NCBI RefSeq assembly: GCF_001499735.1
Contig: NZ_LN848257.1
Coordinates: 707,894-744,733, forward strand
DNA: 36,840 bases
Direction: 5' to 3'
Origin: Thiocapsa sp. KS1
GTDB lineage: Bacteria > Pseudomonadota > Gammaproteobacteria > Chromatiales > Chromatiaceae
In this document: one piece after another, positions 28,564 to 30,153 of the stretch
How the letters are laid out: the number at the start of each line of letters is the position of its first letter
Numbering within the stretch: the stretch's first letter is position 1
Translations under genes and position numbers: made by a program
Notes under the pieces: model-generated
Database searches by the model: none
Told to the model about the DNA's origin: nothing
What the model saw: only the letters and a program-made list of their open reading frames with translations

Positions 28564-30153
28564 ATGATCTCCCTGCTCGACTACGGCGCCGGCAATGTGC
28601 GTAGCCTGCGCAATGCAATCCACTCCCTGGGTTTCTCCTTGACAGAGATCGAGCACCCCTCCGACATCCTCAAGGCGGAGCGGTTGATCTTTCCCGGGGT
28701 GGGTGCATTCGGCGCAGCGATGGAGCGCTTGCACCGACTCGGCTATGTGGAGCCCTTACGCGAGTATCTTGCGGCGGGCCGGCCCTATCTCGGGATTTGT
28801 ATCGGGCTTCAAACCCTCTTCGAGGGCAGCGACGAGTCTCCCGGCGTGCCCGGGCTCGGGATCATCCCGGGACGGATCCGCCGCTTCGACCCGGGTGCGC
28901 TCGCGGTCCCGCACATGGGCTGGAACGACGTGCGGGTGGAGCGCGACTCGCCCTTGTTCGGGGACTACGCCGGGGAGAAGCTCTACTTCGTTCACTCCTA
29001 TTACGCGGATCCGGCGGCCGAGAACCTGGACTGGCAGCTTGCGATGACGGACTACGGCCGCCCCTTTCTCAGTGCCGTCGAGCGGGGACGTATCGCCGCG
29101 GTGCAATTTCACCCGGAGAAGAGCGGAAGCGCCGGTTTGCGTCTTCTGCGCCGCTTTCTCGCCGTCGACGAGCAGCCGGTGGCCGGGATCACCTCCGCGA
29201 GCAAACGCACGCCGACGCGCCTGGCCAAGCGCATCATCGCCTGTCTGGACGTGCGCACCAACGACGCCGGGGATCTGGTCGTCACCAAGGGCGATCAGTA
29301 CGACGTGCGCGAGGCGGGCGAGGTCCGCAACCTCGGTAAGCCGGTCGATCTGGCACAGCGCTATTACGACGAAGGCGCCGACGAGATCACCTTCCTCAAT
29401 ATCACGGCCTTCCGGGACTTCCCGCTCGCGGATCAACCCATGCTCGAGGTCCTCCAGCGCGCCTCCGAGCGGGTCTTCGTGCCGCTCACCATCGGCGGGG
29501 GCATTCGGGCCTTTACCGACGCGGAGGGGGTCGAGTATTCGGCCCTCGATGTCGCCAATGCCTATTTCCGCGCCGGCGCGGACAAGATCTCGATCGGCTC
29601 GGACGCGGTCGATGCCGTCGAAGGCTTTCTGCGGCGCGGAACCAAAGACGGCAGCACGGCGATCGAGCAGATTGCGCGCGTCTACGGCAACCAGGCCGTG
29701 GTGATCTCCATCGACCCGCGTCGCGTCTATGTCCGATCTCCCGAAGACACGCCGCATTACACGGTCGCGACGCGCACGCCGGGACCCGAGGGCGAGCGTT
29801 TTTGCTGGTTTCAGTGCACGGTCAAGGGCGGGCGCGAAGGTCGCGACGTCGACGCCGTAGAGCTGGCACGGGCTTGCGAGGCGTTGGGCGCCGGCGAGAT
29901 CCTGCTCAACTCGATCGACCGCGACGGCACCGGCGCCGGCTTCGATTTGGAGCTGGTGCAGGCCGTGAGGTCCGCCGTCGGCATTCCGGTCATCGCCTCG
30001 AGCGGTGCCGGCTGCGTCGAGCACTTCGCGGAGGTGTTCGCGGCGACGGATGTCGAGGCCGCGCTGGCAGCGGGGATCTTCCATCGGCGCGAGGTTCCGA
30101 TCCGGGCCGTCAAGTCCTATCTGCTCGAACAGGGAATCGAGATCCGGGCCTGA
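28564..30153 (+). CDS. hisHF: Imidazole glycerol phosphate synthase, fused HisH-HisF
   Basis: One 529-residue chain that would carry both halves of imidazole glycerol phosphate synthase: glutamine hydrolysis and cyclisation of PRFAR to IGP plus AICAR in histidine synthesis. HisH part, residues 1-200: nucleophile Cys79 (LGICIGLQTLFEG) with His183 and Glu185 (QFHPEKSG). A short linker follows (about 200-220), then the HisF barrel with catalytic Asp229 (IIACLDVR) and Asp384 (VISIDPRR). The two aspartates are 155 residues apart versus 119 in ordinary bacterial HisF (11 and 130), because of eukaryote-like insertions such as TNDAGDLVVTKGDQYDVRE. No stop or frameshift separates the halves. No hisA is nearby. 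It overlaps the next gene as TGATG. Confidence 0.93.
   Translation: MISLLDYGAGNVRSLRNAIHSLGFSLTEIEHPSDILKAERLIFPGVGAFGAAMERLHRLGYVEPLREYLAAGRPYLGICIGLQTLFEGSDESPGVPGLGIIPGRIRRFDPGALAVPHMGWNDVRVERDSPLFGDYAGEKLYFVHSYYADPAAENLDWQLAMTDYGRPFLSAVERGRIAAVQFHPEKSGSAGLRLLRRFLAVDEQPVAGITSASKRTPTRLAKRIIACLDVRTNDAGDLVVTKGDQYDVREAGEVRNLGKPVDLAQRYYDEGADEITFLNITAFRDFPLADQPMLEVLQRASERVFVPLTIGGGIRAFTDAEGVEYSALDVANAYFRAGADKISIGSDAVDAVEGFLRRGTKDGSTAIEQIARVYGNQAVVISIDPRRVYVRSPEDTPHYTVATRTPGPEGERFCWFQCTVKGGREGRDVDAVELARACEALGAGEILLNSIDRDGTGAGFDLELVQAVRSAVGIPVIASSGAGCVEHFAEVFAATDVEAALAAGIFHRREVPIRAVKSYLLEQGIEIRA

Follow-up and report, generated by a model that had tools for sequence, protein, structure and literature searches.

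A HIS7-type single-chain imidazole glycerol phosphate synthase in Thiocapsa sp. KS1 that appears to stand in for native hisH and hisF

We found a single imidazole glycerol phosphate (IGP) synthase gene in Thiocapsa sp. KS1 (G000), a fused hisHF, and sequence comparison makes it very probable that this sole gene was transferred from a prokaryote near the sulfate reducers, that the native hisH and hisF were lost, and that the HIS7-type cyclase was probably built in prokaryotes. Fused HisHF is best known from yeast and plants. The function of the enzyme appears ordinary and its kind is known; the interest lies in its history.

Domains, catalytic residues and barrel loops of hisHF

The window, meaning the whole stretch of 36,840 nt that was analyzed, carries hisHF as one unbroken frame (Table 1), and no tRNA or Rfam family was found in it. 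As proposed in the original prediction, this frame holds a complete HisH and a complete HisF, since the translation of 529 codons passes the cut-offs of both NCBIfam profiles, with 199.3 bits for HisH (TIGR01855, cut-off 105.4) and 324.4 bits for HisF (TIGR00735, cut-off 294.55). The top match among 71 distinct PDB sequences was yeast HisHF (1jvn; E 1.6e-177, residues 2-528), and the alignment gave 54% identity between the hisHF product and yeast HIS7. The five residues singled out beforehand, C79, H183 and E185, which we take to be the glutaminase triad, and D229 and D384, presumably the cyclase aspartates, were invariant across hisHF, yeast HIS7 and six relatives. Both insertion strings quoted earlier, plus HRREVPIRAVKSYL, were found in the translation. 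In each of 10 same-genus genomes the hisHF match ran full length with no internal stop. This makes a sequencing error between the halves very unlikely, and such an error was ruled out as an explanation; the stop or frameshift that would have told against the original prediction did not turn up. At the level of sequence we regard it as confirmed that hisHF encodes a HIS7-type single-chain enzyme, with no role for chance.

Table 1. Features of hisHF, with positions in the window
Feature	Position	Strand	Evidence
hisHF, single-chain imidazole glycerol phosphate synthase, 529 residues + stop	28564..30153	+	Translation, profiles, PDB match, alignment
HisH glutaminase domain, residues 1-200, with C79, H183, E185	28564..29163	+	TIGR01855 on residues 2-200
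Inter-domain linker, residues 201-219	29164..29220	+	Alignment; differs among fused relatives
HisF cyclase domain, residues 220-529, with D229, D384	29221..30150	+	TIGR00735 on residues 220-528
Loop I1, residues 231-256, 26 residues (ordinary HisF 16), strand 1/helix 1	29254..29331	+	Segment lengths, predicted fold
Loop I2, residues 282-291, 10 residues (ordinary HisF 7), strand 2/helix 2	29407..29436	+	Segment lengths, predicted fold
Loop I3, residues 316-330, 15 residues (ordinary HisF 4), strand 3/helix 3	29509..29553	+	Segment lengths, predicted fold
Loop I4, residues 350-366, 17 residues (ordinary HisF 5), after strand 4	29611..29661	+	Segment lengths, predicted fold
Loop I5, residues 388-415, 28 residues (ordinary HisF median 8, range 4-20), strand 5/helix 5	29725..29808	+	Segment lengths, predicted fold

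Among fused relatives the spacer between the two domains ran from 13 to 69 residues, with a median of 16 (63 rows). Two fused genes have unusually long spacers compared with that median, one of 69 residues (L163, 4254-5999, + strand) and one of 54 (L165, 796-2529, - strand).

Barrel insertions of HIS7 type had been predicted and are present; two had been named, whereas the segment lengths give five, I1 to I5. Taken in that order, the lengths are 16/7/4/5/median 8 (range 4-20) in ordinary HisF (n = 57), 20/7/4/5/19-28 in archaeal HisF (n = 5, comprising three Methanothrix or Methanosaeta rows, G491 and G570), 27/7/4/17/28 in a stand-alone long HisF (n = 3), a median of 26/10/15/17/28 in fused rows (n = 66, with KS1 hisHF counted twice and two incomplete genes included) and 29/10/15/18/28 in yeast HIS7. 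In the predicted fold of the hisHF product (12 sequences, mean pLDDT 74.5, several loops below 50), each of the five loops links a barrel strand to the helix after it, at strands 1 to 5. The strand-to-helix side is the catalytic face of the HisF fold, so the insertions would bear on the active site of the cyclase, not on the place where it joins HisH.

Distribution and phylogeny of the HIS7-type cyclase

In the order to which KS1 belongs, 60 of 147 genomes matched at E 1e-90, all of them in family f1 and spread over 20 of 48 genera; 57 matches were whole-length and three came as two pieces within one frame. A second phylum, that of G169, gave 46 matches in 247 genomes, of which 41 were fused in one frame, two were incomplete (G329, which lies at the end of a contig, and G220, whose HisH part is shortened) and three were stand-alone HisF, and a draw around G180, which belongs to the same phylum, gave 34 of 198. 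This phylum is most likely Desulfobacterota, because the kin are named Desulfobulbaceae, Desulfobacteraceae, Desulfobacterales and Deltaproteobacteria. Of 196 genomes in the phylum of G184, three passed E 1e-60. G626 has a fused gene; G491 and G570 scored close to the threshold with a stand-alone HisF some 280 residues long. HIS7-type HisF was found in 1 of 398 genomes drawn from the phylum of KS1, that one being KS1 itself, and in 0 of 216 and 0 of 221 genomes of two further draws, neither of which contained a positive control. A contig pattern scan returned, among the matches listed, at least 12 loci fused in one frame and at least 68 that were not, which is no census, since a general HisH motif served as one of the two patterns and the counts concern only those matches. 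A tblastn search of 72,556 plasmid records matched 93 of them, all below 60% identity, and the exact fused-type motif occurred in 0 stretches of viral contigs. The flanks of 18 fused loci, of the sulfate-reducer kind plus G626, gave no match to the hisB, hisA, hisI or hisE of KS1. The original prediction was right about the HIS7 type of the enzyme but incomplete in calling the fused form the eukaryotic arrangement, as the form is also present in the 60 and 41 genomes just counted and in prokaryotes in print (2007, 2024, from the portions of those papers available). Fused HisHF is not to be taken as the mark of a eukaryote.

Two contigs of the IMG/VR viral collection (L022, L023) carry adjoining but separate, distant hisH-like and hisF-like genes, with 35-39% identity to the hisHF product over the best segment. 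A long frame upstream of hisHF in L168 had no Pfam match and was put down to chance.

The trees placed these sequences on a ladder. A HisF tree of 79 rows and 252 columns, limited to columns that ordinary HisF also has, joined archaeal HisF to the rest (96/95), stand-alone long HisF to fused genes and yeast (100/100), and fused genes to yeast (100/99). The same three branches received 98/97, 100/100 and 100/100 in a 46-row HisF tree rooted with six HisA, and 99/99, 100/99 and 100/100 in a combined HisH and HisF tree (61 rows, 513 columns), the bootstraps of the 79-row and 61-row trees not having settled. Loop lengths follow the same ladder, from ordinary to archaeal to stand-alone long to fused and yeast. 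In a HisH tree built by a quick method (91 rows), fused genes grouped with yeast (86). HisH from the class with the stand-alone long HisF joined a row from Armatimonadota (87), and the archaeal HisH clustered with further archaea plus one cyanobacterial row (84). Since this tree shows no ladder, the ladder is a history of HisF and not of HisH. On the archaeal branch, which adjoins the HIS7-type HisF, I5 has 19-28 residues in Methanothrix HisF and in two genomes of its phylum (L056, L058, L060, L181, L182).

KS1 hisHF did not fall within ordinary gammaproteobacterial HisF, the placement that would have told against the original prediction, and lay outside ordinary HisF in both the 79-row and the HisA-rooted trees. 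The fused genes of its family form one clade inside the fused group (97/97 in the HisF tree, 100/99 in the combined tree), and most other rows of that group are kin of sulfate reducers. The nearest kin of the clade are L118, L121, L117, L123, L124, L163 and the archaeal L212 in the combined tree (95/94), L124 and L163 in the HisF tree (80/86), and a wider set beside it in the HisA-rooted tree, and thus differ between trees. It had been proposed that the gene was either transferred or a bacterial relative of the stock from which the eukaryotic form came, and both readings fit a gene that nests among the fused genes of sulfate-reducer kin.

The rung just below the fused genes is occupied by an unfused HisF found in all three genomes examined of one class (G281, G245, G207). 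This stand-alone long HisF has 298-308 residues, scores 325.7-332.7 bits against the HisF cut-off of 294.55, and carries three of the five HIS7-type loops, I1, I4 and I5, with I2 and I3 at the ordinary 7 and 4. G245 and G207 carry a HisH on a separate contig, and a genome search of G281 found none at E 1e-5. We found no earlier report of such a HisF in the open literature. In all three genomes (stretches L150 2358-6394, L151 3363-8369 and L152 5205-8995) the gene is not part of a his operon; its neighbors encode a radical-SAM protein that has a B12-binding domain on one side and a glycerol-3-phosphate acyltransferase on the other.

A HIS7-type cyclase built in prokaryotes would probably have begun as a stand-alone HisF that gained I1, I4 and I5; I2, I3 and the joining with HisH would have followed, in an order that we leave unassigned. 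A living intermediate would place the making of the eukaryotic-type enzyme in prokaryotes. We lean toward the view that the enzyme was assembled there stepwise and that eukaryotes then obtained it from prokaryotes close to the sulfate reducers, which is opposite to the direction in print. According to Fani et al. (2007), the fusion arose in eukaryotes and moved from plants to delta-proteobacteria, in which case hisHF would be a later hand-on among bacteria. Their tree, in the part of the paper available, holds 18 eukaryotic and 3 bacterial bifunctional sequences and clusters the bacterial ones with plants (PMC1963479). Our own AU tests leave room for it, as they did not reject a single clade of prokaryotic fused genes that excludes yeast (p 0.136, 0.33, 0.205), and yeast was not placed inside these genes with significance. 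Yeast, the sole eukaryote in our trees and a long branch, did fall among the prokaryotic fused genes in both HisF trees, and its place does not settle the direction between eukaryotes and prokaryotes. What makes the published direction unlikely is the prokaryotic stand-alone HisF, which has three of five loops and branches just outside fused genes and yeast (100/99, 100/100). Joining it to yeast was rejected (p 0.003), as was joining it to the prokaryotic fused genes with yeast outside (p 0.0007), these groupings having been chosen after the tree was seen. The loops would then have preceded the fusion, in prokaryotes, which argues against a transfer from plants to bacteria.

The stand-alone long HisF could also be a fused gene that split again and lost I2 and I3, given that all three carriers, three genomes only, belong to a phylum rich in fused genes. 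We consider this improbable, because I2 and I3 have exactly the ordinary lengths, the tree without loop columns puts this HisF outside all fused genes, and the HisH found alongside it in G245 and G207, two of the three carriers, stands apart from fused HisH. The origin of HIS7 becomes testable with sequences through this stand-alone long HisF and the numerous fused genes from kin of sulfate reducers.

The job of hisHF and the loss of hisH and hisF from the his operon

A whole-protein search of the KS1 genome hit two places, hisHF itself and a 21-bit match that is HisA (257.9 bits, cut-off 228.95), and no further HisH or HisF was found at E 0.001. The second, ordinary hisH/hisF pair that the original prediction had allowed for was thus not found in this genome, and without it there is no sign of the other job that had been suggested. 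As hisHF is the only IGP synthase found, its product almost certainly carries out the ordinary fifth step of histidine synthesis. By analogy with its family, the N-terminal half would strip ammonia from glutamine, the ammonia would pass through the barrel, and the C-terminal half would convert PRFAR to IGP, which goes to histidine, and AICAR, which goes to purines, as in yeast HIS7. HisF-like paralogues of the WbuZ/HisF2 kind exist, and one genome of the genus (G007) has an extra HisF-like gene, so hisHF might instead serve a task such as sugar amidation while histidine is made otherwise. That is very improbable, as hisHF misses the cut-offs for WbuZ (TIGR03572, 162.5 of 299.7 bits) and HisF2 (NF038364, 114.7 of 310 bits), and KS1 keeps hisB, hisA, hisI and hisE yet has no other HisH or HisF that we found.

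The extra gene in G007 (L262, 3628-4410, + strand) encodes 260 residues, reaches 279.6 bits against the HisF cut-off of 294.55, is also under the WbuZ and HisF2 cut-offs, and has a phospholipase A1 and an AraC-type response regulator as neighbors. The KS1 assembly measures 10.38 Mb in 43 contigs (one of 5.07 Mb, stated contamination 1.13%); ten same-genus genomes measure 3.3-6.1 Mb.

We read the his operon in nine of the 11 genomes that represent the KS1 genus, the sole fused genus of the family so read (G003 and G004 gave no HisA place). All nine (G000, G001, G002, G005-G010) have hisB-A-I-E-tatC, with hisH and hisF gone. In KS1 itself, where the original prediction had proposed to look for a normal hisBHAF operon, hisB, hisA, hisI and hisE stand in a row with tatC further on, and hisHF lies elsewhere in the genome. 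Spacers between matched ends in the genus are 75-92 bases for hisB-hisA and 31-219 bases for hisA-hisI. Twelve same-family genomes of other genera included ten with separate hisH and hisF, one fused (G014) and one without a match (G019). In seven of these ten the order hisB-H-A-F-(I)-E-tatC was found in one stretch, with hisI seen in one of the seven; G015 has B-H-A-F-E up to a contig end, G011 has B-H-A and F-E-tatC split over two contigs, and G018 has H-A-F-E in a stretch without hisB and tatC. The kept neighbors and short spacers indicate that hisH and hisF are gone from the operon. A hisI match was absent from nine of the ten separate-gene stretches with hisF and hisE (L230, L231, L233-L237, L246, L248), and only L232 has hisI.

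We suggest that an ancestor of some members of this family acquired hisHF horizontally, from a prokaryotic lineage close to the sulfate reducers, and that native hisH and hisF were then lost from a hisBHAF(I)E operon. The gene looks borrowed, and one foreign fused gene would stand in for two resident genes. The GC3 of hisHF (0.83) is like that of two window neighbors, fabF (0.81) and pepN (0.82), so base composition keeps no trace of a transfer. An independent fusion of native hisH and hisF within this family is scarcely credible even though relatives hold both genes in one operon, since hisA sits between them there, native HisF is without HIS7-type loops, and the trees put hisHF with HIS7-type HisF, outside ordinary HisF. 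Displacement by transfer would make the hisB-A-I-E operon of this genus a clear natural example in which a single foreign fused gene replaced two residents, and no earlier report of hisH/hisF displacement in such an operon was found in the open literature.

Comparison with known systems

Fused prokaryotic HisHF is already in print, in 2007 and 2024, in those parts of the papers that were available. Of the 21 bifunctional sequences found by Fani et al. (2007), two delta-proteobacteria contributed 3; the authors noted insertions in common and proposed a transfer from plants (PMC1963479). The accessible text of a 2021 paper has the fusion either arise in the ancestor of eukaryotes or come from a still unknown prokaryotic donor (PMC8305728), and that of a 2024 paper describes, in two Archaeoglobales, a fused HisHF with about 70% identity to those of sulfate reducers (PMC11237513). 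The portions available of three others (PMC10138114, PMC2530860, PMC6214176) held nothing bearing on prokaryotic HisHF. Added here are the operon displacement, the nesting among fused genes of sulfate-reducer kin and the stand-alone HisF with part of the loops.

Saccharomyces cerevisiae HIS7 (PDB 1jvn, 1ox4, 1ox5, 1ox6) likewise has HisH and then HisF in one chain, with five loops of similar length, whereas hisHF has a bacterial host. The Sedimenticola selenatireducens pair (L083) shares both domains and, judging by family, the reaction, but as two genes without HIS7-type loops within hisB-H-A-F-E-tatC; its HisB, HisA and HisE are 79, 72 and 79% identical to those of KS1, and its HisH and HisF share 41 and 40% identity with the fused hisHF. 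The HisHF of delta-proteobacteria (PMC1963479) and of Archaeoglobales and sulfate reducers (PMC11237513), as described in the available parts of those papers, is prokaryotic and of the same fused type with shared insertions; hisHF differs from it in lying in a family of gammaproteobacterial type, with a his operon that lacks hisH and hisF.
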